Part shown: in pieces, positions 1 through 18,869 of the stretch
Layout of the letters: each line of letters starts with the position of its first letter
How positions within the stretch are numbered: the first letter of the stretch is position 1
Virus record (IMG/VR): IMGVR_UViG_3300032323_000220
Span: 1-20,856 of that record
Direction: 5' to 3' (one strand)
Source: a virus
Length of the DNA: 20,856 nucleotides
The notes under the pieces: generated by a model
The model's database searches: none
Told to the model about the DNA's origin: nothing
What the model saw: the letters and a program-made list of their open reading frames with translations, nothing else
Position numbers and translations under genes: made by a program

Positions 1-1977
1 AAAGAGTTCTGCATCTGGTGGCAGCAAAACTACCCAGACGTAATCACTGGTTGGAACACTGACTTCTTCGACGTGCCTTATCTCGTTCGCCGTATCGAGC
101 GAGAGTTGGGCGAGTCCTTTGCCAAGAAACTTTCTCCTTGGGGTTATATCAATGAGCGTAAGACATTCATCAAAGGTAACGAAGAAATCCACTACGACAT
201 CCACGGTATCTCTCAGCTAGACTACCTACAACTGTACAAGAAGTTCACATACACAAAGCAAGAGTCATACCGTCTTGACTACATTGCTGAGCAAGAACTT
301 GGCGACAAGAAGAAGGAAAATCCAGGAGAGACTTTCAAAGACTTCTACACTCACCACTGGCAACAGTTCGTTGAGTATAACATTCATGACGTTGAGCTTG
401 TTGACCAAATGGAAGACAAGATGCGATTGATTGAGTTGTGTTTGACCATGGCTTACAACGCAAAGATTAACTACGAAGATGTATTCTCGCAAGTACGTAT
501 GTGGGATGCTATCATCTACAACCACCTGCGTCACAAGCACGTTGTAATTCCAGCAAAGGGTTTCTCATCCAAAGCTGAACAGTTTGAAGGTGCTTATGTT
601 AAGGATCCGTTGGTTGGTGCTCATAAGTGGGTTGCGTCGTTTGACTTGAACTCCTTGTATCCTCACTTGATCATGCAGTATAACATCTCGCCTGAGACTC
701 TGACCCACGAGAAGATCTCATGTAACGTGGACGCATTGCTCAATCAACAAGTTGATACAAGCCACGCACATCGTCGTGACTTGTCAATGACTGCCAATGG
801 TTGGTGTTATCGCAAAGATATCAAAGGGTTTATGCCTGAGTTGATGGAAAAGATGTACAAAGACCGTTCAATGTACAAGAAGCAGATGCTTAAGGTTCAA
901 CAAGAGTACGAACACGACAAGGGCAACAAAGCACTAGTCAAAGAGATCTCTCGTTTGAACAACCTGCAGATGGCTATGAAGATTGCCCTAAACTCTGCTT
1001 ACGGTGCCATGGGCAACCAGTACTTCCGTTACTTTGATATTCGTATGGCTGAAGGTATTACAACTTCTGGTCAGTTGTCCATTCGTTGGATGGCAAACAA
1101 GCTAAACGTCTTCATGAACAAGACTCTCAAGACTGAAGGTATTGATTACGTCATTGCCATTGACACTGACTCGATCTACCTGACACTTGAACATCTTGTT
1201 GAGAAGGTTTGCGCTGGCAAGACTGATGAACAAAAGATCAAGTTCATGGACAAGATCTGCGAGGATGTTTTCCAACCGTTCATTGACGATGGTTATCAAG
1301 AGTTGGCAAAGTACATGAATGCATACTCTCAAAAGATGATCATGAAGCGAGAAGTTCTAGCCGACAAAGCCATCTGGACTGCCAAGAAGCGATACATTCT
1401 CAACGTGCATAACTCTGAGGGTGTTCAATACGCAAAGCCAAAGCTAAAGGTGATGGGTCTTGAGATGGTCAAGTCTTCAACTCCAGCAGTCATTCGTGAT
1501 AAACTGAAAGATTCTATCAGTGTTATTCTTGAAGGTGATCAGTCTAAGTTGCATGCTTACATCGAGAAGTTCCGTGCAGAGTTTCGTCAACTTCCAGTTG
1601 AAGAGATCGCATTCCCACGTGGTGTGAATGGTATGAACACTTACAAAGGTTCGCCAATCTATGCTAAGGGCACACCGATTCACGTTCGTGGTTCTTTGTT
1701 GTTCAATCACCACTGCAAGCGTCTTGGTCTCGAGAAGAAGTATCAAGCCATCAAAGATGGTGACAAGATTAAGTTTGTGTATGTTCGCAAACCAAATCCG
1801 TTCCAAGAAGATGTCATCTCGTTCCCTCAAGAACTGCCGAAAGAATTCGCACTACATAGTTATGTAGATTACGACTTGCAGTTTGAAAAGGTTTTCCTTG
1901 ACGCAATGCAAACCGTAATTGAGCCACTTGGGTGGCGCACAGAACAACAAGCATCTATTGAGGACTTCTTCGGATGA
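1..1977 (+). CDS. 43: DNA polymerase, T4 gp43-like family B (5' truncated by window edge)
   Basis: Replicative DNA polymerase with 3'-5' proofreading exonuclease. The frame is open from base 1, before the first internal ATG at 73, so the true start is outside the window. Visible motifs, in order: Exo II (GWNTDFFDVPYL, about nt 49-84), Exo III (YNIHDVELVD, near nt 380-405), polymerase motif A (FDLNSLYP, catalytic Asp at 643-645), motif B (KIALNSAYGA, near nt 980-1010) and motif C (IDTDS, GACACTGAC at 1162-1170). The KVMGLEMVKSSTP block typical of T4-type polymerases follows. The protein ends in IEDFFG, resembling the C-terminal sliding-clamp (gp45) binding peptide of T4/RB69 polymerase. About 658 codons are present against roughly 900 in T4, so only the N-terminal third is missing. 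The catalytic motifs look intact and no frameshift is seen. The next gene overlaps its stop (ATGA). Confidence 0.97.
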   Translation, partial: KEFCIWWQQNYPDVITGWNTDFFDVPYLVRRIERELGESFAKKLSPWGYINERKTFIKGNEEIHYDIHGISQLDYLQLYKKFTYTKQESYRLDYIAEQELGDKKKENPGETFKDFYTHHWQQFVEYNIHDVELVDQMEDKMRLIELCLTMAYNAKINYEDVFSQVRMWDAIIYNHLRHKHVVIPAKGFSSKAEQFEGAYVKDPLVGAHKWVASFDLNSLYPHLIMQYNISPETLTHEKISCNVDALLNQQVDTSHAHRRDLSMTANGWCYRKDIKGFMPELMEKMYKDRSMYKKQMLKVQQEYEHDKGNKALVKEISRLNNLQMAMKIALNSAYGAMGNQYFRYFDIRMAEGITTSGQLSIRWMANKLNVFMNKTLKTEGIDYVIAIDTDSIYLTLEHLVEKVCAGKTDEQKIKFMDKICEDVFQPFIDDGYQELAKYMNAYSQKMIMKREVLADKAIWTAKKRYILNVHNSEGVQYAKPKLKVMGLEMVKSSTPAVIRDKLKDSISVILEGDQSKLHAYIEKFRAEFRQLPVEEIAFPRGVNGMNTYKGSPIYAKGTPIHVRGSLLFNHHCKRLGLEKKYQAIKDGDKIKFVYVRKPNPFQEDVISFPQELPKEFALHSYVDYDLQFEKVFLDAMQTVIEPLGWRTEQQASIEDFFG

Positions 1978-2528
1978 ATAACATTAAGGTTATCAAAACT
2001 GGCATCAACGTATCAAAGATACTTGCACAACTAAAGAAGCATCCCGAAGATTGGGGTGCTCAGAAAAACATAGAAGGTGTGCACGATCTAGTGAATGAGT
2101 TTGGATTCCCTGCCGTACAAGCTGGTGTGTTACAGCTTGTGATTGGTGGAGTTGAGAGTTTAGACCAGTACGTTGGCGATACCGAAATCTGCATACCAAC
2201 TCCTGCAATTAAGAATCATACTGAGATTGTTGGTTTCTTGAAACGAAACTTCAAGAGTTTTAGTCGATGTGGATTCTTGTCTTTGCCAGTTGGTGGTAAA
2301 GTTGGTAAGCACATTGACATTGGAACTTACTACCAAACCCGAGATCGTTATCATCTGGCTATTCAAGGTAGATATAAGTACATGGTGGGTGATGAAGAAG
2401 TTATTGTCGAGCCAGGAACATTAATCTGGTTCAACAATAAATTAGAACATGGAACAGAAAACATTGGAGATGAGGTTCGTATCACCTTTGTGTTTGATGC
2501 ACCACACCACAAGTCTAATCCAAAGTAA
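1974..2528 (+). CDS. Aspartyl/asparaginyl beta-hydroxylase-like 2OG-Fe(II) oxygenase
   Basis: A 184-residue protein whose C-terminal half matches the aspartyl/asparaginyl beta-hydroxylase branch of the 2-oxoglutarate/Fe(II) cupin oxygenases. The iron facial triad is visible as H113-x-D115 (in GKHID) and H159 (in KLEHGT). R169 (in EVRITFVFD) is the likely 2OG-binding arginine, and RYHLAIQG at 125-132 is the strand typical of this branch. The PGTLIWFNNKLEHGTEN segment is the usual turn before the distal His. Family members hydroxylate side chains of proteins or peptides; the substrate here is unknown. The start ATG overlaps the polymerase TGA (ATGA), so translation is probably coupled. Unlike the dioxygenase at 5620, it lacks the TET/JBP signature and is less likely to act on DNA bases. 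The family is fairly sure, the function is not. Confidence 0.82.
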   Translation: MNNIKVIKTGINVSKILAQLKKHPEDWGAQKNIEGVHDLVNEFGFPAVQAGVLQLVIGGVESLDQYVGDTEICIPTPAIKNHTEIVGFLKRNFKSFSRCGFLSLPVGGKVGKHIDIGTYYQTRDRYHLAIQGRYKYMVGDEEVIVEPGTLIWFNNKLEHGTENIGDEVRITFVFDAPHHKSNPK

Positions 2529-5619: not shown

Positions 5620-6987
5620 ATGTTAGAAAAAGATAGAAACGTAAAGATTATCGTGGCAGACCGCAAGCATGATTGTTCCCATCTGTTGGGTCAATTCCTT
5701 GACGAATCGCACTACGACATTTTGGTAGAAGAAGACTGCGACGTTTACATGCCACCAAATTGCGACATCGCTACTCAAGCCAATTGTGATGTTCCAAAGA
5801 ACTGCGCTGGTTGCGAGAAGGGTACTGACGAACTACGAATTGCGTTCAAGTTCCGCAAGAACTACTTTACCAAAGAGCAACAAGACGCTGCTTATGCAGG
5901 TCTGCGTGAAGCTGCAGTTGAAACTCAGAACCGTGGTCTTGCAGCTGGTCCACGTGCAGAGAAACTTGGCAACCGTGAGTGGGTTACTGAGTACGAATAC
6001 GAAATGCTTGATCACTTCTTGAAGCCAGCAGAGAATCTGTTTGGTGAAGATCCAGTTGAAGAACTGCGCAAGAAGTACGAAGGTAAGAAAGCTGCAGTGT
6101 CTAACCGTGCACGTGTATGGTCTATTGATCGAGTTAAGAAAGAATCATTCAAGTTCGATGAGTGGGTTGACAAAGCACGCAAGCTGCCACAAGATGAAGC
6201 AAAGGCTCAAGCCAAGCACGTTGCTGAAGATCTGATCTGCGCAACTACTTACGCTAACTCTGTCAACTCTGGCATTGCTGGTTGGTTCGATCGTTACCCA
6301 CGTATTCCGTTTGGTCGTGCAACATCATACACTCGTGATAACTGGGAAAAGTTTCAGATGTCATTCCCGTTCCTACAAACTCTGGCTGCAGGTTTCAAGG
6401 AATTGCTACCATGGCGTTACAACAACCAGATGGAAGCTGCCAAGAAAATCGACCCAGCATTCTTAGTTCCTGGAACACCGTTCACTACTGTGACTGTTAA
6501 CAAGACTTTCCGCACTGCTGCTCACTATGACGCTGGCGATCTGGATAGTGGCTTGTCTAACTTGTTGGTTCTTTCCAACAATGGTAACTACTCTGGCGCA
6601 TATCTTGTTGCTCCTGAGTATCGTGTTGCTGTCAATGTGCGTCCAGGAGACTTGCTGTTGATTAACAACCACGAAGTTATGCATGGTAACACACCAATCG
6701 TTTGTCATGACGATGAAGCAGAACGCATCTCTTTGGTTTGCTACTTCCGTGAGAAGATGCTTGAGTTGGGTTCCAAAGAGTATGAAGATTGCCGTTATGA
6801 CTTTGTTGAGTCACGCAAGAACGACAAAGAGCATCCAGAGCAACGTCCACTTTGGAATGGTGTTTCCGCTGGTATGTGGGAAAGCCAAGAGTGGTATGAC
6901 TACTGTGAACAGAAACTTGGTCGTGACCAGCTGATGAAGTATCATCCAGAAGCTGAGAAGGCTAACTCTCTTGAAGGATTCTTCTAA
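5620..6987 (+). CDS. TET/JBP-family 2OG-Fe(II) dioxygenase (predicted DNA thymine or 5mC oxidase)
   Basis: A 455-residue protein. The start is the ATG at 5620, 6 bases after the strong SD TAAGGAG (5607-5613) that overlaps the helicase stop; an upstream in-frame start at 5494 would lie deep in the helicase gene. The C-terminal half carries the TET/JBP signature. It has TVTVNKTFRTAAHYDAGD with iron ligands H302 and D304, then GLSNLLVL, SGAYLVAPEYRVAVNVRPGDLLL, distal H355 (EVMHGNTPI) and the 2OG arginine R369 (ERISLVCYFREK). This closely follows kinetoplastid J-binding protein dioxygenases, which hydroxylate the thymine methyl in DNA; phage TETs can oxidise 5-methylcytosine. The N-terminal half is unusual, with six cysteines at 19, 40, 48, 56, 62 and 65 (the last as CAGC), possibly a metal site, followed by a helical region. 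The next gene is coupled (TAATG). Family assignment is strong; base specificity is unknown. Confidence 0.88.
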   Translation: MLEKDRNVKIIVADRKHDCSHLLGQFLDESHYDILVEEDCDVYMPPNCDIATQANCDVPKNCAGCEKGTDELRIAFKFRKNYFTKEQQDAAYAGLREAAVETQNRGLAAGPRAEKLGNREWVTEYEYEMLDHFLKPAENLFGEDPVEELRKKYEGKKAAVSNRARVWSIDRVKKESFKFDEWVDKARKLPQDEAKAQAKHVAEDLICATTYANSVNSGIAGWFDRYPRIPFGRATSYTRDNWEKFQMSFPFLQTLAAGFKELLPWRYNNQMEAAKKIDPAFLVPGTPFTTVTVNKTFRTAAHYDAGDLDSGLSNLLVLSNNGNYSGAYLVAPEYRVAVNVRPGDLLLINNHEVMHGNTPIVCHDDEAERISLVCYFREKMLELGSKEYEDCRYDFVESRKNDKEHPEQRPLWNGVSAGMWESQEWYDYCEQKLGRDQLMKYHPEAEKANSLEGFF

Positions 6988-7700
6988 TGTGTGGAGTAAT
7001 TGGTGCTGTAATCAAAGCACCAACTAAGGATGACTTGGCAACCCTGCGTAATGTATTCTATGAATCTAAGATTCGTGGTATGCATGCGACAGGGATGTCG
7101 TTTCTCCCTAGCTGGTCTGATAAGATTGTGACGATTAAAGAGTCGGTTCCTGCCGATGCATTTATCGAAAAACATCTACATAATGATAACCTCAAAGAAC
7201 TAATCAGCGCAGATGGTAACTTGTACCTAATTGGTCATTGCCGTTACAGCACTAGCGATCTTGAGTACAATCAGCCACTAGCCAACGAAGTAAAAAGCAT
7301 TGCACACAATGGTGTTATTACTCAAGAAAGCCCAGAGAAGTGGGCAGAGTTGTATGGTCATGATTGTCTTACAAAGAACGACAGCGAGTTAGTTCTGCAC
7401 TCCAACGATCCACTGCGTGAGTATTCTCATATGTCAATGGGTGTTTGTGAGTTGACACTTGATAAGAAGGTTCGTTTCTATCGCAATGGTAAGCGACCAA
7501 TTTATTTTACTTTGTACGATAACGGGTGTATAATTACATCTACTAAAGATATTGCGAAACGTGCAGGTCTTGACTTGCCAGTTGAAGTGCCAATGAATAT
7601 GTACATGACTGTTGACGGATACTTGTCAATGAACATGGAACGAGTTGATATTGCTAATAATGATTTGCAAAGGGTAGAATATGAAACAATACGAATCTAA
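6987..7700 (+). CDS. Class II (Ntn) glutamine amidotransferase
   Basis: A 237-residue glutaminase-type domain that releases ammonia from glutamine for a partner enzyme. It begins MCGVIGA, so Met removal leaves Cys2 as the N-terminal nucleophile, the defining feature of class II amidotransferases. Further family motifs are RGMHATG (30-36), GHCRYST (83-89), the oxyanion/substrate motif AHNGVI (106-111) and NDSE (131-134). There is no fused synthetase domain, unlike GlmS, AsnB or PurF, so the ammonia acceptor must be separate. The ATG overlaps the dioxygenase TAA (TAATG). The next gene, an amidoligase, overlaps its 3' end by 20 bases, which argues that the two work together: the amidotransferase may supply ammonia or a gamma-glutamyl group while the amidoligase makes an amide bond. 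The physiological product cannot be read from sequence. Confidence 0.92.
   Translation: MCGVIGAVIKAPTKDDLATLRNVFYESKIRGMHATGMSFLPSWSDKIVTIKESVPADAFIEKHLHNDNLKELISADGNLYLIGHCRYSTSDLEYNQPLANEVKSIAHNGVITQESPEKWAELYGHDCLTKNDSELVLHSNDPLREYSHMSMGVCELTLDKKVRFYRNGKRPIYFTLYDNGCIITSTKDIAKRAGLDLPVEVPMNMYMTVDGYLSMNMERVDIANNDLQRVEYETIRI
7506..7534 (+). promoter_or_regulatory. Possible internal sigma70 promoter for amidoligase
   Basis: TTTACT (7506-7511) and TATAAT (7529-7534) are 17 bases apart, inside the amidotransferase gene and about 150 bases before the amidoligase start. Ten of 12 hexamer bases match consensus. Surrounding codons here are more AT-rich than elsewhere in the gene. It could give separate expression of the amidoligase/GNAT pair, but it is inside coding sequence. 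Confidence 0.4.
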
Positions 7701-8559
7701 AGACTTCACATGGGGTTATGAGATTGAATGGGGTGACGTTGATCGTCGTCTTGAAGTTCCTGCACATCTTGGTGCTTGGGAGTACGCTGAAACTGATATC
7801 GTGAACATTCATGAACCCTTTAAGTACGTTGCCTGCGATCCTCTTGGTACTGATCCTTACATGGGTGGCGAGATTAACACCAAGCCAACTAGAACATGGC
7901 AAGAGCAAGCCGATCGAGTTATGGAGTTGCACCAGTTCTTCGTTGACAATGGCAACCAACCATCTGCGTCTTGCGTAAATCATGGTCACCTTCACGTTTA
8001 TGTTCCTGGACTTAAAGATGATGTTGCGTCACTAAAGAAGTTGATTGCTTACATCAAAGCAAACCAGACTGATACTATTGAAGCGTGTTACGGTTTCTAC
8101 GAAACTGGTCAGATGAAAACTGCCAAGGGTGCTAAGATGTACCTCAAGTATGACGGTGGACGAGAAATGCCAGAATACATGTGCGACAATATCATCAATC
8201 TAGCAACAGACTTTGAACACTTTATCAAGCTACACGCTGCAGGTAAAGATGGTGTATCAATGGGTCGTCCATTCCGCTACGCTATCAATACTTACTGTAT
8301 GAAGCACACAGGTACCATTGAGTTCCGTTGTTTCCGTTCTTCAACTAAGCGTGAAGAAGTAGAAGCGCAGTTCCGTTTCGCAGAGAAGTTTGTTCATGCT
8401 GCATTGAACGATGGTCCAAGCGTCAAGGAAATCCTTGCTGCTGAAGAGTTCAAGTTCCCTCCATTCGTTTGGGATCTGAACGAGTATGTTGGTTGGGTTA
8501 ACACAAAGTGGGATAAAGAGCGTGGCAATAAGCACCGTGAATACCATGAAGTTGCGTAA
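7681..8559 (+). CDS. Amidoligase (Amidoligase_2 / GCS2-like fold)
   Basis: A 292-residue ATP-dependent ligase of the gamma-glutamylcysteine-synthetase-like COOH-NH2 ligase superfamily, which forms amide or peptide bonds. Motifs follow the Amidoligase_2 order. GYEIEW (12-17) is the first metal/ATP glutamate strand, and GGEINTKP (62-69) is the second acidic motif. NHGHLHVYV (100-108) is the variant of the usual CGxHVHV strand. GRPFRYAINTY (195-205), with arginines, leads into TGTIEFRCFRSS (210-221). An SD (AAGGG, near 7669) precedes the ATG. The gene overlaps the amidotransferase by 20 bases and the acetyltransferase by 14 bases, a three-gene translationally coupled unit. Amidoligases next to class II amidotransferases and GNATs are a recognised context for novel peptide-like metabolites or covalent tags. 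The substrate is not predictable; in this phage it may decorate a modified base or a host molecule. Confidence 0.87.
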   Translation: MKQYESKDFTWGYEIEWGDVDRRLEVPAHLGAWEYAETDIVNIHEPFKYVACDPLGTDPYMGGEINTKPTRTWQEQADRVMELHQFFVDNGNQPSASCVNHGHLHVYVPGLKDDVASLKKLIAYIKANQTDTIEACYGFYETGQMKTAKGAKMYLKYDGGREMPEYMCDNIINLATDFEHFIKLHAAGKDGVSMGRPFRYAINTYCMKHTGTIEFRCFRSSTKREEVEAQFRFAEKFVHAALNDGPSVKEILAAEEFKFPPFVWDLNEYVGWVNTKWDKERGNKHREYHEVA

Positions 8560-9088
8560 GTGTACCAGAGACGAATTCGTAGCAGCCATCACTGAAGACA
8601 AGGCTGACGGTTTCGCTAAGACATTCAGAGCCAAAGCAGATATGCAAAAGCAATGGGATGAGTGTCTTGGTGCCTTTACCGATGATGGTGAACTCATGGG
8701 TGCAATCATCACCACTCTAAGCAGAACAGAACCAAAGGTTGCCAACCTACAACTGCTTCATACGTTCGCCAAGCATAGACGCAAAGGTGTAGCAAAAGAA
8801 CTTACTCTGCGCTCCTACGCCGATATAGTGCAGCGAGGTGCTGTTTATTTCCGAGTTTCTGCCGAGCCACCTGCTGTACCATTTTACGAATCCTTAAGTT
8901 TTACTTTTTGGGGCAAGCAGAAATCGGGGTGCAGCCTTAGTATCTTTAAGGTAAACGGTGCTCTGCAGGATGGAATATACGATGATAAAGACCCTACAAT
9001 TCGTAAGGCATTATTTTCGGGTCGAAAGGGAAGCCTAGCATCGTCCTACGATTCGCAAAAAGGTGTTGACTTAAATTCGTTTTTGTAG
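8546..9088 (+). CDS. GNAT-family N-acetyltransferase
   Basis: A 180-residue protein of the GNAT fold, which transfers an acyl group from acyl-CoA to an amine. The ATG at 8546 overlaps the amidoligase end by 14 bases; a longer frame from 8486 would run mostly inside that gene. The acetyl-CoA pyrophosphate loop appears as HRRKGVAKELTLRS (near residues 76-90), following the beta-strand NLQLLHTFA. VYFRVSAEPPAVPFYESLSF, ending near residue 129, matches the beta5/alpha4 region in which a Tyr often serves as general acid. The C-terminal 50 residues are polar and not recognisable. As the third member of the coupled amidotransferase-amidoligase-GNAT group, it could cap the amine of the product. The end of this gene contains the promoter for the next one. 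The family call is firm, the substrate is not. Confidence 0.85.
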   Translation: MKLRKCTRDEFVAAITEDKADGFAKTFRAKADMQKQWDECLGAFTDDGELMGAIITTLSRTEPKVANLQLLHTFAKHRRKGVAKELTLRSYADIVQRGAVYFRVSAEPPAVPFYESLSFTFWGKQKSGCSLSIFKVNGALQDGIYDDKDPTIRKALFSGRKGSLASSYDSQKGVDLNSFL

Positions 9089-9094
9089 TATAAT
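9066..9094 (+). promoter_or_regulatory. Sigma70-type promoter for the GIY-YIG/ParB-like gene
   Basis: TTGACT (9066-9071) and TATAAT (9089-9094) are spaced by exactly 17 bases, the same hexamers and spacing as the thioredoxin promoter. The -35 lies inside the last codons of the GNAT gene and the -10 just after its stop. Transcription would begin near 9101, giving a leader of about 25 bases before the ATG at 9127. It divides the putative modification cluster into two transcription units. Confidence 0.85.
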
Positions 9095-9126
9095 AATACT
9101 ATTGAAACTGAGAAAGTAACCTTGTT

Positions 9127-10422
9127 ATGAAACTAAATCCCATCTATGAAGCATTGACTTACGGTTACCGAAATATGGATAACGGTAAACTTTATCCAGG
9201 ATTTCATAAAACCAAAGAAGAGCATGATGGATATATCTTCTCTTCTAAAGATGAAGAGTTAGAGACTGCTCATCAGTTCGGTCGTTTAGAAAAGGTTATT
9301 CTGTGGCGTGGCTCTGTTGAAGAGTGTATCACGCTAGAACATTACATTCTAAAGAATAATAATGCCATCACAAATGACTTGTTTTATAACAAGTCAGTTG
9401 GTGGTGGTGTTGGTTTGGTTAAAGACTTCTCGAACCTAACCGATGTTATGAAGACCATCGCCAACGAATGGGTTAAGGGTACTGATCCAGTTTGGGAAAC
9501 TGCGCAACATGATGTTGATGTTGACGATGTTAAAGAAATCAAAAGTAAGATCGACTCTGGATTTTACATAAAAATTCTCCAAGACGTAGTCACCATTCTT
9601 GCTCTTCCAAAGAATCAGGTTCGTGAAGAAGTTTACGACCCTAAGCACGTTGAAGATATTAAGAATGAGATGTTGAATAACACGGCAAAGGCACGTGAAG
9701 TTGTTCAACCTGTTATCGTTGTCGTTTTCCCAGATGGTCGTATGGAAATCGTTGACGGTAACCACACCATTCGTGCAGCACACGAAGCTGGTTGGACTAA
9801 GATCAAAGTCATCTATATCAATTCAACTGACTTCAATAATAAACAGTGTAACATTGACTGGTTCGGTTACTACATGAACCACCAAGAGATGAAGAAGAAA
9901 GGTAATACTGATGGTGACTGTAAGAAAGCCATCGCACGTTACGCAACTACTCATCCTCAGTTTGAACTTGGTACACACGACTTCAAAGAATCGTTCATGA
10001 AGGCATATTCTTTCTTCTGGACTCGTGTTAAGATTGCTAAATGTATTGAATCTGTGATGCGTCACCAAGCCACTCAACAAGCTATGGCTAATCATAACTT
10101 CAAACTGTATAGCGATTCTGAATTGAAAGCTATCGTCCAGAAAGAAGAGAGTAAAGATTCTGAACTTGCTGTTGTTAGTATTTCAGCGAGTAGCTGTTAT
10201 AACTCGGGGTTGGGTGCTATCTTGAATAAGATGGGTGAGATCTCAGAGAAAAGTGGCAAGCGTTGTACGAAGGGTACGATTATTGTTTCTTGCCGTTCAT
10301 ACGACGACTACATAAACAAGTCTGGTCACGATGGTAAGTTGAAGCGTAACCTAAAATTGTATGCGCCAGATGGTGTTGAGATCAAGACTAAATGGTTGAA
10401 AGAATTTGTTAAGACTAAGTGA
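9127..10422 (+). CDS. GIY-YIG-like / ParB-like fusion protein
   Basis: A 431-residue protein with two recognisable parts. The N-terminus (about 10-78) resembles a GIY-YIG nuclease. YGYRNMDNGKLYPGFHKT stands in for the GIY...YIG strands, DGYIFSS and a FG-LEKVILW strand follow, and E71 in TLEHYILK is the likely metal-binding glutamate. The middle (about 155-235) is ParB/sulfiredoxin-like: a regulatory Pro-containing strand (QPVIVVVFPDG), then MEIVDGNHTIRAAHEAGW with the DGNHT-xR phosphate-binding motif at 210-216, then IKVIYI. ParB-fold proteins bind or hydrolyse NTPs, and some relatives phosphorylate serine. The C-terminal 190 residues, mostly helical, are not recognised. The gene has its own sigma70-type promoter, lacks a strong SD and is coupled to the next gene by TGATG. 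It could be a nuclease or DNA-binding regulator, or a nucleotide-using enzyme of the modification pathway. Confidence 0.75.
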   Translation: MKLNPIYEALTYGYRNMDNGKLYPGFHKTKEEHDGYIFSSKDEELETAHQFGRLEKVILWRGSVEECITLEHYILKNNNAITNDLFYNKSVGGGVGLVKDFSNLTDVMKTIANEWVKGTDPVWETAQHDVDVDDVKEIKSKIDSGFYIKILQDVVTILALPKNQVREEVYDPKHVEDIKNEMLNNTAKAREVVQPVIVVVFPDGRMEIVDGNHTIRAAHEAGWTKIKVIYINSTDFNNKQCNIDWFGYYMNHQEMKKKGNTDGDCKKAIARYATTHPQFELGTHDFKESFMKAYSFFWTRVKIAKCIESVMRHQATQQAMANHNFKLYSDSELKAIVQKEESKDSELAVVSISASSCYNSGLGAILNKMGEISEKSGKRCTKGTIIVSCRSYDDYINKSGHDGKLKRNLKLYAPDGVEIKTKWLKEFVKTK

Positions 10423-11441
10423 TGGATTATAGACTACAAGAAAATCGACGTGAAGCGTTCATCCGCTGGTACGCATGGTCTCTGAAATACGATGACTGTG
10501 ACCCAGCGGTATGGGCGACTAACTACTTAAACAATCGTTACGAACATAACGATGAACAGCGACTGTGGCTTTGCTGGCTCTATGGTAATACTTACTACCT
10601 TCCAACTGCGTGGGTTCTCATGAACGAGTTTCCTGACTTTGAGTTGGCAACGGTAGAGCGTATTACTAATTGGAACACAGCCAACTACAAACGACTGCGC
10701 TATCAGACTGATACAAAGTGGAACAAAGGGCACTTGCCTACAATGTTCGAGTCGTACCAGTCTTTTATTGGTGAACATACTCAACGAGAAAAACTGGAGT
10801 CATATTATGGAGACAATGAAGAACAAAACTTTACAAACCTGTGGAATGTTCTTAAAGGTAGCTTGCATAAATTCGGTCGTTATTCTACTTGGTTCTATAT
10901 GCAACATCTTAAGCACACTGCTGGTGTTGCTGTTGAGCCCACTAGTCTTATGTTGGACGATTATGATGGCTCTCGCTCTCATCGTAATGGACTACTTTAT
11001 GCCCTTGGACAAGAAGACGATGTGGATCGAAAACTCACTGCACTGGAGTATGGAAGACTTGAAGCGCACGGCAGAAGTATTCTCGAAGAGGTACGACATA
11101 GATTCCCAGAAGTGGCAAATCAAGTAGACTTCTTTACAATGGAAACTTGCTTGTGTTCATTCAAGAAGATCTTCCGTGAGAAGCATGGTCGTTACCTTGG
11201 TTACTACTTGGATCGTCAATGTGAAGAGATTGAGCAGTGCGCATCTGATGGTTGGTATGGTATTGATTGGGATGTTATGTGGCAAGCACGCAATGAAACA
11301 ATAGACTTGCGTCTTGACCATCACCGTGGTATTGATAAAGAAAAGTTTCCTAACTTTATTAGATCAGGTAGAATAGAAAACTTGGAATGGTTCTTTGATG
11401 ACGAAGAACCTCAACTTATTGGCTTGGAGGCATTTGCATGA
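10422..11441 (+). CDS. Probable amino acid:DNA transferase-like protein (aGPT-pyrophosphorylase, clade 3-like)
   Basis: A 339-residue, mostly helical protein rich in Trp, Tyr and charged residues. The N-terminal third, with NRYEHNDEQRLWLCWLYGNT, YYLPTAWVLMNEFPDFE (near 59-75) and FESYQSFIG, resembles phage proteins of the alpha-glutamyl/putrescinyl-thymine pyrophosphorylase families. These are now called amino acid:DNA transferases, and replace the pyrophosphate on 5-(pyrophosphoryloxymethyl)uracil in DNA with an amine. I make this match from memory of the family pattern, so it is tentative. Support comes from context: the TET/JBP dioxygenase upstream, and a P-loop kinase fused by an ATGA overlap directly downstream, the same partnership known in thymidine-hypermodifying phages. 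The C-terminal part contains CLCSF, EEIEQCASDGWYGIDWD and a conserved-looking HHRGIDKEKFPNFIR. The start is ATG 10422, overlapping the upstream TGA. Confidence 0.6.
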   Translation: MDYRLQENRREAFIRWYAWSLKYDDCDPAVWATNYLNNRYEHNDEQRLWLCWLYGNTYYLPTAWVLMNEFPDFELATVERITNWNTANYKRLRYQTDTKWNKGHLPTMFESYQSFIGEHTQREKLESYYGDNEEQNFTNLWNVLKGSLHKFGRYSTWFYMQHLKHTAGVAVEPTSLMLDDYDGSRSHRNGLLYALGQEDDVDRKLTALEYGRLEAHGRSILEEVRHRFPEVANQVDFFTMETCLCSFKKIFREKHGRYLGYYLDRQCEEIEQCASDGWYGIDWDVMWQARNETIDLRLDHHRGIDKEKFPNFIRSGRIENLEWFFDDEEPQLIGLEAFA

Positions 11442-11977
11442 GAAAGATTATTGCGGTAGGTGGTCAGCCTGGAACTGGCAAGACCACTCTTTTCCGAAAG
11501 TACATGGAAGGTAAAACTTGGGAAAAGGTTGAACCCTTAAAGATGCTCCCTGCTCTATACTGCAAAGAGATCGATACCTATATCCTAGGCAAGTATGAAG
11601 ACGGCGAAACCTTTGCTGGTACTGATAGACTGTCCATGGCAGTTCAACCTGTAGCTACAGAGTTTGTTAAGGGTACGACTTCCAACATCCTTTTTGAAGG
11701 CGATCGAATCTTCAACCAGTCTTTCCTAGAGATGTGTATGGATCTGCCTGATACAGATCTTCAGGTAGTCTATTTGAAGGTGCCAGACGAGATGCTTAAA
11801 CAGCGTTATGCAGATCGAGGCTCCGACCAGTCTGAGACTTTTCTAAAAGGTCGGGCTACTAAATATAGTAACCTACTATCAAACTTTGACCTTATGTCCT
11901 ATATTACTGAGTTTGTAAACACTAACTTAGAGGAGCAGGGGAAGGTAATTGCATTCTTGGAGAAACACTTAGGCTAA
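11438..11977 (+). CDS. P-loop kinase (candidate hydroxymethyl-pyrimidine DNA kinase)
   Basis: A 179-residue P-loop NTPase with Walker A GGQPGTGKTT (residues 8-17). A GTDRLSMAVQ segment, a hydrophobic strand ending in ILFEGDRIFN (Walker B or substrate-binding region) and a VVYLKVPDEMLKQRYADRG strand-helix follow. SETFLKGRATKY probably forms the arginine-bearing LID. The size and layout are those of small nucleotide/nucleoside kinases, but the GTDRLS and EGDRIFN blocks are what I associate with phage kinases encoded beside thymine-hypermodification genes, where the enzyme pyrophosphorylates or phosphorylates 5-hydroxymethyluracil in DNA. A good SD (GGAGG near 11426) precedes the ATG, which overlaps the previous TGA (ATGA). 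P-loop kinase is secure; DNA-base substrate is inferred from neighbours. Confidence 0.78.
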   Translation: MRKIIAVGGQPGTGKTTLFRKYMEGKTWEKVEPLKMLPALYCKEIDTYILGKYEDGETFAGTDRLSMAVQPVATEFVKGTTSNILFEGDRIFNQSFLEMCMDLPDTDLQVVYLKVPDEMLKQRYADRGSDQSETFLKGRATKYSNLLSNFDLMSYITEFVNTNLEEQGKVIAFLEKHLG

Positions 11978-12708: not shown

Positions 12709-12730
12709 GGTTCAAACTAAGGGTATATTG

Positions 12731-13762
12731 ATGGCTGACTTGGGAAGTAAAGCAACGGACGGAAGATTGTCCTTTGTAAAATACGTTACGGAAAATAAGC
12801 GTTTCGCCGAAATCGAATTTGAAATCGAGAAGGGGAAAAGCACAGTCGTATACACAAAGAAGGGAACCAACTTAGTAGCTGGAACTAAAGAGTTCAAAGC
12901 TGGCACTAAGATTAAGATCCTTGATCAAAAGATGCACGAGATAGCCAAGCTGAAGCTGGCTTCTGTTCAGATTGGTACAGTCAAAGGTTTCATTCCAATC
13001 AATACAATCCGTAAACCAACTGGTGGTAACGGTACTCAGTATGAAGACGAAGTCGTTGATGCAATCAACGCATATATTCTAAAGGCTGGTGGCAAAGTTG
13101 ACATCAAGCTAAAAGGTGATTCGAAAACCTACAAAGACATTGCGTATGCAGTGAAGGTTGATTCGCCAATTAAAGCCAAAGCTGGTGTCAAGGGTGACCC
13201 AAAGGCTGACATTATCTTATGTAAGGATATCAAAAACCCAACAGCAGCTGGTTCAATCTACATCTCTCATAAAAAAGAAGGTGGTCCAGAAGCGTTCCAA
13301 CAGTACGGTGGTTTGTCTGAGCAGTCAGGTGAACACATCTACAATCATCCGTTGGTTCAAAAGTTTCTTGGGGAGGTTGCCAAAGTTCTTGGTAGTTCTG
13401 ATCAACTACCTAACCCAGTGCTTGGTGAGTTCAAAGACGACACTCTGGCAAACATGTCCATTTATGGACCAGACTACGGCAGAGCGTACTCGCTGCAACA
13501 TACACAGTTGATCGGTCAAGGTAAGCCAGTCTTCAAAGTGACTGGCAAAGTTTCAGAACTATCGTTCAGCAGCCACATGAGTTTGTCTGGCGATTTGTCT
13601 CACTTTACTGGTGGATACTTGCCTGTATTTGGCGCAACATTCCGTGCTGGTCGTGGCTTTACTTATAAGGGCAAGCGTTACAATGGCGCACGTGTTGCCA
13701 TCTACCCACATAAACTAATGGCTACTCGTGGTGGCTTGATTATTGTAAAAGTTAAGAAATGA
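12731..13762 (+). CDS. Late protein with possible SH3-like and PD-(D/E)xK-like domains
   Basis: A 343-residue protein from the ATG at 12731, with SD AAGGG (12719-12723); a TTG one codon upstream is less likely. Residues about 35-95 are beta-rich and end in VKGFIPINTIRKP, similar to bacterial SH3-like domains. Residues about 103-195 have the order expected of a PD-(D/E)xK nuclease fold. A helix contains E105 (QYEDEVVDAINAYI), then DPKADIIL with D160, then the strand YISHKK with K181 in place of the usual ExK, then AFQQYGG. The C-terminal 150 residues are Gly/aromatic-rich and may be beta-structured. It is the first gene after a late-promoter-like motif and is ATGA-coupled to the ligase-like gene. 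Either a packaged nuclease-like protein or a structural component would fit. Domain calls are tentative. Confidence 0.65.
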   Translation: MADLGSKATDGRLSFVKYVTENKRFAEIEFEIEKGKSTVVYTKKGTNLVAGTKEFKAGTKIKILDQKMHEIAKLKLASVQIGTVKGFIPINTIRKPTGGNGTQYEDEVVDAINAYILKAGGKVDIKLKGDSKTYKDIAYAVKVDSPIKAKAGVKGDPKADIILCKDIKNPTAAGSIYISHKKEGGPEAFQQYGGLSEQSGEHIYNHPLVQKFLGEVAKVLGSSDQLPNPVLGEFKDDTLANMSIYGPDYGRAYSLQHTQLIGQGKPVFKVTGKVSELSFSSHMSLSGDLSHFTGGYLPVFGATFRAGRGFTYKGKRYNGARVAIYPHKLMATRGGLIIVKVKK

Positions 13763-18419: not shown

Positions 18420-18869
18420 ATGAATGAACTAACAACTACACTAAAGGTGCTATTGGCAAACCAATTTGTTGCCTACTTCAAAGCACAAACATATCACTGG
18501 AACACAGAAGGTATTGAGTTCCCTCAGTACCACGAATTCTTTGGCGATCTATATGCAGACTACTATGGTGCTATTGATCCAGCTGCTGAGTACCTACGTG
18601 TTCTTGATGAGTATGCTCCAATCAGCTTGATGGAAATGTATAACTACAAGACTATCTCTGAAGACTCTGCAAAACCTGCTACCCTAGAGCAGATGCTTAC
18701 CAATATCGGTGGAGCCAATCAAGCACTGATTGAAAACCTAAATAAGTTATTCGACGTTGCTTCACAAGCAAATGAACAAGGTATTGCTGATTGGGCTGCT
18801 GGTCGTTTAGACGCACACAAGAAACATGCATGGATGATTCGTTCGTGCTTAAAGAAATCTGGGGAATAA
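18420..18869 (+). CDS. dps: Dps/ferritin-like DNA-protection protein
   Basis: A 149-residue four-helix-bundle protein of the Dps family, which oxidises and stores iron and shields DNA. Family motifs are AQTYHWNTEG (22-31), YHEFFGDLYADYYGAIDPAAEYLR (37-60, shown as a range) and the C-terminal helix DWAAGRLDAHKKHAWMIR. Against E. coli Dps, the spacing H26...H38...D53...E57 reproduces the ferroxidase ligands H51, H63, D78 and E82. The position equivalent to D67 is G42, with an Asp next to it at 43. It is shorter than E. coli Dps (167 aa) and lacks the Lys-rich N-terminal DNA-binding tail, though the C-terminus is basic. The SD AGGAAG precedes the ATG. Among late genes, it may be packaged or made late to protect phage DNA from oxidative damage. 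Confidence 0.88.
   Translation: MNELTTTLKVLLANQFVAYFKAQTYHWNTEGIEFPQYHEFFGDLYADYYGAIDPAAEYLRVLDEYAPISLMEMYNYKTISEDSAKPATLEQMLTNIGGANQALIENLNKLFDVASQANEQGIADWAAGRLDAHKKHAWMIRSCLKKSGE

Follow-up and report, generated by a model that had tools for sequence, protein, structure and literature searches.

A portable phage gene cassette that probably directs post-replicative hypermodification of thymine in DNA

Phage systems for thymidine hypermodification have been described in M6 (5-NedU), ViI (5-NeOmdU), and phiW-14 (putT) (PMC6449724). In the actinophages CaiB and Tonitrus, genes encoding a TET/JBP protein, an ADDT/pyrophosphorylase-type enzyme, a kinase, and a ParB-like protein have been proposed as a probable thymine hypermodification system (PMC9302106, PMC11955845). 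Here we analyze a cassette of seven genes, located at positions 5620 to 11977 of a 20,856-base viral fragment from IMG/VR (IMGVR_UViG_3300032323_000220; this whole stretch is called the window below). We consider it probable that this cassette encodes a pathway that hypermodifies thymine in DNA after replication, an assessment that concerns the general scheme and neither of its two versions (ammonia or glycine as the amine donor) in particular.

All seven genes lie on the plus strand and form a single tight operon, in which successive junctions are overlaps of 1, 20, and 14 nucleotides (nt), a 38-nt gap, and overlaps of 1 and 4 nt. The first-pass annotation of the window had placed seven genes at these positions, and the open reading frames (ORFs), the junctions, and Pfam searches bear it out. 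When each protein was checked against profiles, as that annotation had proposed, six of the seven exceeded the curated Pfam cut-offs; Amidoligase_2 alone fell under its cut-off, and that protein is backed by its fold instead.

Three of the enzymes define the predicted core chemistry. The first gene (5620 to 6987, Tet_JBP, 4.5e-28; ATG start codon at 5620, preceded by AGGAG) encodes a TET/JBP-type Fe(II)/2-oxoglutarate (2OG) dioxygenase, the predicted thymine hydroxylase acting on DNA. Its iron triad (H301-x-D303 and H354) and 2OG-binding R368 were invariant in 22 diverged members, and its profile aligned with human TET2 at 9e-7. The sixth gene (10422 to 11441, with an alternative GTG start at 10419) encodes an amine/amino acid:DNA transferase (ADDT) of the PUGT fold (PF18724, 1.1e-21). 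Because direct sequence searches of the PDB with the ADDT and the kinase returned no matches, we examined the ADDT through its predicted fold. For the AlphaFold2 model (predicted local distance difference test [pLDDT], 89.5), the top three Foldseek matches were all the solved 5-phosphomethyl-dU (5-PmdU) glycinyltransferase gp46/PUGT of phage PaMx11, and VIA-align superposed the model on 8z2n/8z2m over 255 residues with a Z score of 17.6 and a root mean square deviation of 3.6; the next-best group of structures, 8-oxoG/MutY DNA glycosylases, reached a Z score of 9.5 or less. The seventh gene (11438 to 11977) encodes a P-loop kinase, predicted to be a 5-hydroxymethyl-dU DNA kinase. It belongs to its own Pfam family (PF18751, Ploopntkinase3, 1.9e-10), related to but distant from the 5-hydroxymethyluracil DNA kinases (HMUDK) of M6 and ViI. 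The cassette kinase and those of M6 and ViI fall together in phrog_800, its profile aligned with the M6 and ViI pair by hhalign (97% / 1.1e-10), and motifs outside the P-loop are among those they share (GKY...G-T/L-DR and FEG). Thus, the relationships on which the first-pass reading had staked itself, of the 10422 product to the AADT-type family and of the 11438 product to HMUDK, were both recovered.

The genes between the dioxygenase and the ADDT supply a second set of predicted activities. A class II (Ntn) glutamine amidotransferase (GATase; 6987 to 7700, GATase_6, 8e-7) is the predicted glutaminase and ammonia donor. Its N-terminal nucleophile Cys2 and its RYSTSD, HNG, and NDSE motifs were invariant in 35 members, and its profile matched PurF and GlmS structures. 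The adjoining gene (7681 to 8559) encodes an amidoligase of the glutamine synthetase (GS)/gamma-glutamylcysteine synthetase (gamma-GCS) fold. We accepted this assignment despite a sub-cut-off Pfam score (Amidoligase_2, 0.0043) because the confident AlphaFold2 model (pLDDT, 92.5) has that fold, matching YbdK, glutamine synthetase, gamma-GCS, PafA, and GmaS in the PDB with a best Z score of 11.1. Its invariant motifs, GxExEWGD, GGEIN, HxH, and T-EFR, are of the Glu/His/Arg catalytic type. A GNAT acyltransferase follows (8546 to 9088, Acetyltransf_10, 1.3e-8), its start taken as 8546 within a longest ORF that begins at 8486. Judging by motifs and models, the enzymes of the cassette look active.

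Linkage among relatives ties these activities together. IMG/VR contained 338 relatives matched by the TET protein, 199 by the amidoligase, and at least 575 by the ADDT. Linkage was counted in 48 distinct ADDT loci that had enough flanking sequence, with identical copies removed: the TET gene was present in 47, and the GATase and the kinase in 46 each. The exceptions were the cultured Caulobacter phage Cr30, where the kinase lies farther away and neither a GATase nor an amidoligase was found, locus L043, which is without a GATase, and a WOR-3 contig, which is without a TET gene and whose diverged kinase-like gene, a sub-threshold HMUDK match, was missed by the linkage profile. All 28 amidoligase loci also had the GATase and the ADDT, 27 had the TET gene, 27 the kinase, and 26 the GNAT. 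The amidoligase (26 loci, usually with the GNAT) and a GNAT-like family, F18 (20 loci), were mutually exclusive and never occurred together; F18 replaces the GNAT in half of the related loci, and the GATase is retained in 20 loci that have no amidoligase. Across all loci retrieved, no fusions (Rosetta-stone links) were detected among the module families, and the sole fusion seen was an amidoligase-phosphatase on the WOR-3 contig.

The neighborhood search proposed for other phages found the gene order repeated in dozens of diverged contigs and several genomic backgrounds, a conservation far beyond chance. In the window, the cassette is preceded by a block of T4-like replication genes (DNA polymerase, 2OG oxygenase, thioredoxin, UvsX-like recombinase, and DnaB-type helicase). 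The helicase adjoins it in 58 distinct loci, and a further 21 place it elsewhere; it is therefore portable. Among the phages searched, no cultured record carried all of its genes. In some sister phages the TET gene stays in place and is followed downstream by a TET-associated glycosyltransferase (PF20691, 4.8e-19), in others by a nucleotidyltransferase with a GT1 enzyme or by the F33/F43 pair, which has no family match and is glycosyltransferase-like by eye only; sister contigs G003 and G008 are without ADDT. We read this as the TET enzyme providing a hydroxymethyl handle that phages complete in different ways.

The amidoligase also occurs in three other base-modification settings, a distribution that speaks against some unrelated function in metabolism. 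In phage Simon (PQ683277), it lies in an unannotated M6/PaMx11-type cluster with an ADDT, a flavin adenine dinucleotide (FAD) oxidoreductase, a low-molecular-weight (LMW) phosphatase, a sub-threshold HMUDK, the HMUDK helical-domain partner HMUDK_hel, Nmad5, and a thymidylate synthase (TS)-type enzyme. The WOR-3 contig combines a kinase, a GATase, an ADDT, and the amidoligase-phosphatase fusion. In Vibrio phage 2.275.O (L244, 7896 to 13104), an amidoligase homolog stands beside QueF, QueC, GTP cyclohydrolase, and a class II GATase-like protein, hinting that this 7-deazaguanine cluster makes an undescribed deazaguanine derivative. The WOR-3 contig, from a metagenome-assembled genome (L246), also carries a short TS-like gene (1504 to 2175, minus strand), likely a substitute for TET. 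Pairing or fusion of the amidoligase with an LMW phosphatase (PF01451) was seen in three unrelated settings (L082, 12040 to 13427; L168, 8001 to 9383; L243, 7968 to 9378).

From what was directly observed (gene content, active-site motifs, folds, linkage, exclusive swaps, and no other sources of 5-hydroxymethyluracil [hmU] or 5-methylcytosine [5mC] in relatives), we infer each chemical step of the pathway, their order, and protection from host nucleases as its purpose. The TET/JBP enzyme would hydroxylate the 5-methyl group of thymine in phage DNA, yielding hmU, which the P-loop kinase would phosphorylate to 5-phosphomethyluracil. The ADDT, a base-flipping enzyme whose fold resembles that of DNA glycosylases, would replace the phosphate with an amine nucleophile. 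Using ATP, the GS-fold amidoligase would then form an amide bond on the side chain so installed, and the GNAT would cap a free amine. Such amide extension and acyl capping is plausible and is favored by the exchange of amidoligase plus GNAT for the GNAT-like F18 and by the presence of the amidoligase inside an M6/PaMx11-type cluster.

Which base enters this pathway was addressed in 16 contigs that carry the cassette or come from sister phages; four of them span 160 to 171 kb, and twelve are shorter. None of the 16 encodes a TS-family hydroxymethylase (PF00303), in a search that detected the M6 and ViI hydroxymethylases as positive controls, and synthesis of hmU at the nucleotide level was accordingly rejected. 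ThyX was present in 10 of the 16, including all four large contigs, so that these phages own a route to ordinary dTMP. A cytosine pathway, in which a C5-methyltransferase would produce 5mC for TET to oxidize and the resulting 5-hydroxymethylcytosine (hmC) would be decorated by the downstream enzymes, has precedent: in metavirome TET systems hmC is decorated after TET acts on 5mC, the phage TETs characterized to date act, to our knowledge, on 5mC, and the profile match to TET2 indicates that the TET families are related. Set against this, no C5-cytosine methyltransferase (PF00145) was found in the 16 contigs, including the four large ones, and both the ADDT and the kinase come from families of thymine hypermodification enzymes; we regard the cytosine pathway as very improbable. 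The lack of PF00145 and PF00303, the presence of ThyX, and the families of the ADDT and kinase together indicate that TET most likely oxidizes thymine already in DNA, a specificity predicted from context. Searches for a dUMP hydroxymethylase and a C5-cytosine methyltransferase had been suggested from the outset, and with neither found in the related contigs, ThyX present, a PUGT-fold ADDT, and an HMUDK-like kinase, the initial proposal that a JBP-like enzyme makes hmU after replication is well supported.

The two versions of the pathway share these first two steps and diverge at the amine, so that their probabilities overlap with that of the general scheme. In the version that we prefer, ammonia released by the GATase would be used by the ADDT to form 5-aminomethyluracil, the amidoligase would attach an amino acid or a different carboxylate, and the GNAT would acylate the product. 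In the other, nearly as likely, the ADDT would add glycine or another amino acid, the GATase and amidoligase would turn its carboxylate into a carboxamide, and the GNAT would act on the remaining amine. The glycine version draws on the best structural match of the ADDT, which is the 5-PmdU glycinyltransferase PUGT, and on the company that the GATase keeps with the amidoligase in 28 of 28 loci, ammonia-dependent amidation being a classic partnership of both enzyme types. Persistence of the GATase in the 20 loci without an amidoligase points instead to ammonia, and no gene for a glycine-processing lyase, a pyridoxal phosphate (PLP) enzyme, or a radical SAM protein recurs throughout the set. An FAD glycine-lyase-type DAO was not detected above cut-off in the 16 contigs, where one sub-threshold match was found; phage Simon has the FAD oxidoreductase (DAO) and no GATase, and the cassette contigs show the reverse, the GATase search across phages having been run with a positive control. 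As chemical precedent we take tRNA modification by MnmEG, in which aminomethyl- or carboxymethylaminomethyluridine is built from ammonium or glycine (PMC3936742), the C5-methylene of uridine accepting either. A further possibility is that the GATase, amidoligase, and GNAT are a module of their own that modifies a metabolite or the cell envelope and has nothing more than the operon in common with DNA modification by TET, kinase, and ADDT. Amidoligase/GATase clusters have been proposed for peptide and cell-wall chemistry. Such a module seems improbable given that the ADDT accompanies the amidoligase in every one of its 28 loci (the TET gene and the kinase in 27), that the amidoligase also resides in clusters for thymidine hypermodification (M6/PaMx11-type) and for 7-deazaguanine, and that the amidoligase and F18 exclude each other inside the operon.

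Returning to the ammonia version, we tentatively propose, with rather less than even confidence, that the product is an undescribed base: thymine oxidized within the DNA, converted to 5-aminomethyluracil by ammonia from glutamine, extended by GS-fold amide formation, and N-acylated. If so, a small peptide-like side chain would be assembled stepwise on DNA by tailoring genes exchangeable between phages. Several points weigh against the thymine pathway or this version of it. The window is a 20.9-kb fragment, so that the absences rest on its relatives, and the 160- to 171-kb contigs are of T4-like size with completeness not proven. The preference of TET for thymine over 5mC derives from context and not from its pocket. 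The fold match of the ADDT is to a transferase of glycine, not ammonia, and the GATase-like protein of Vibrio phage 2.275.O is only a distant relative. Finally, the helical-domain partner of HMUDK (PF18723) was found in 0 of the 16 contigs, though M6 and ViI possess it, and given its absence the kinase may act by another mode.

The fifth gene (9127 to 10422) sits less firmly in the set. It encodes an N-terminal GIY-YIG-like motif domain fused to a ParB/Srx-like domain, and the first-pass description of it as a GIY-YIG/ParB fusion stands for the ParB half (ParB_N, 5e-8). The N-terminal half has conserved YGWRN-NGKMYIG-E-YN motifs, on which its GIY-YIG label depends; its profile matched no GIY-YIG structure in the PDB and, among 22 members, gave one weak Pfam match, to SegE. 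The fusion gene occurs in 13 of the 48 distinct ADDT loci, and we therefore treat it as an optional accessory, revising the original seven-gene membership of the island. Elsewhere the slot between the GNAT and the ADDT is filled by other genes, some nuclease-like, including F116 (endonuclease-VII/HNH-like), F71, and F64. Directly downstream of the cassette, a gene at 12728 to 13762 was assigned by PADLOC to a Type II restriction enzyme (REase_II, 8e-16) and may act as a phage-encoded restriction counterpart to the modification; the equivalent slot in relatives holds unrelated families, several of them PD-(D/E)XK-looking by eye and without such a family match. Radical SAM proteins (F78) lie between the ADDT and the kinase in L033, L176, L178, and L236, which suggests an extra carbon-chain rearrangement of the base there.

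A reading of the cassette as a defense system was dropped: PADLOC left six of its proteins without a match and gave the kinase one weak match to VakA (5e-4). Repeats within the cassette amounted to short, imperfectly matched pairs, and sites resembling promoters or terminators were about as many as shuffled sequence would give. Elsewhere in the window, a 2OG-type oxygenase conserved in many relatives (1974 to 2528; Cupin_2, Asp_Arg_Hydrox; phrog_32420) lies between the DNA polymerase and thioredoxin genes, and a Dps/ferritin-like protein is encoded at 18420 to 18869 (PF00210, 1.6e-19).

If correct, the scheme describes a complete route, all of it within DNA, by which ordinary thymine gains an amine and is extended through an amide, with no need for hydroxymethylated nucleotides. 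Since the module is common and portable and its locus swaps amination for glycosylation, it would offer a naturally occurring collection of thymine chemistries and of ligases that act on DNA, of interest both for the restriction conflict between phages and their hosts and for labeling DNA with enzymes.

Like the systems of M6, ViI, and phiW-14, the cassette would rely on hmU in DNA, a 5-hmU DNA kinase, and ADDT-family transfer onto the phosphorylated base, to which it adds the GATase, amidoligase, and GNAT. Whereas those phages make hmdUMP before replication with a TS-type hydroxymethylase and have HMUDK_hel, the cassette has TET instead and no HMUDK_hel. Its ADDT shares with PaMx11 PUGT the fold and the predicted step, in which a nucleophile displaces the phosphate of 5-PmdU in DNA, but the two are 12 to 13% identical, and the cassette has a GATase where PaMx11 has an FAD oxidoreductase companion. 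In phage Simon, the amidoligase likewise adjoins an ADDT and HMUDK; there, a TS-type hydroxymethylase stands in for TET and an FAD oxidoreductase for the GATase, and the amidoligase is 25% identical. Base J and TET-associated glycosyltransferase systems also use a TET/JBP enzyme to make the hmU handle, but they glycosylate it, whereas the cassette would aminate it. CaiB and Tonitrus, from a different phage group, come close in having TET/JBP, an ADDT/aGPT-type enzyme, a kinase, and a ParB-like gene in an overlapping operon; the GATase, amidoligase, and GNAT are not mentioned there. A general prediction by Iyer in 2013 is said to lie behind the actinophage proposals and may mention the gene set of the cassette. 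The first-pass claim that the gene set was without precedent therefore holds in part: the combination of TET, ADDT, kinase, and ParB had already been proposed (PMC9302106, PMC11955845), and a literature search in which co-mentions were judged by title and abstract found no paper joining an amidoligase with such a pathway. What sets the cassette apart from these systems is its amidotransferase/amidoligase/GNAT branch, which appears undescribed, and the final base, which may be new.

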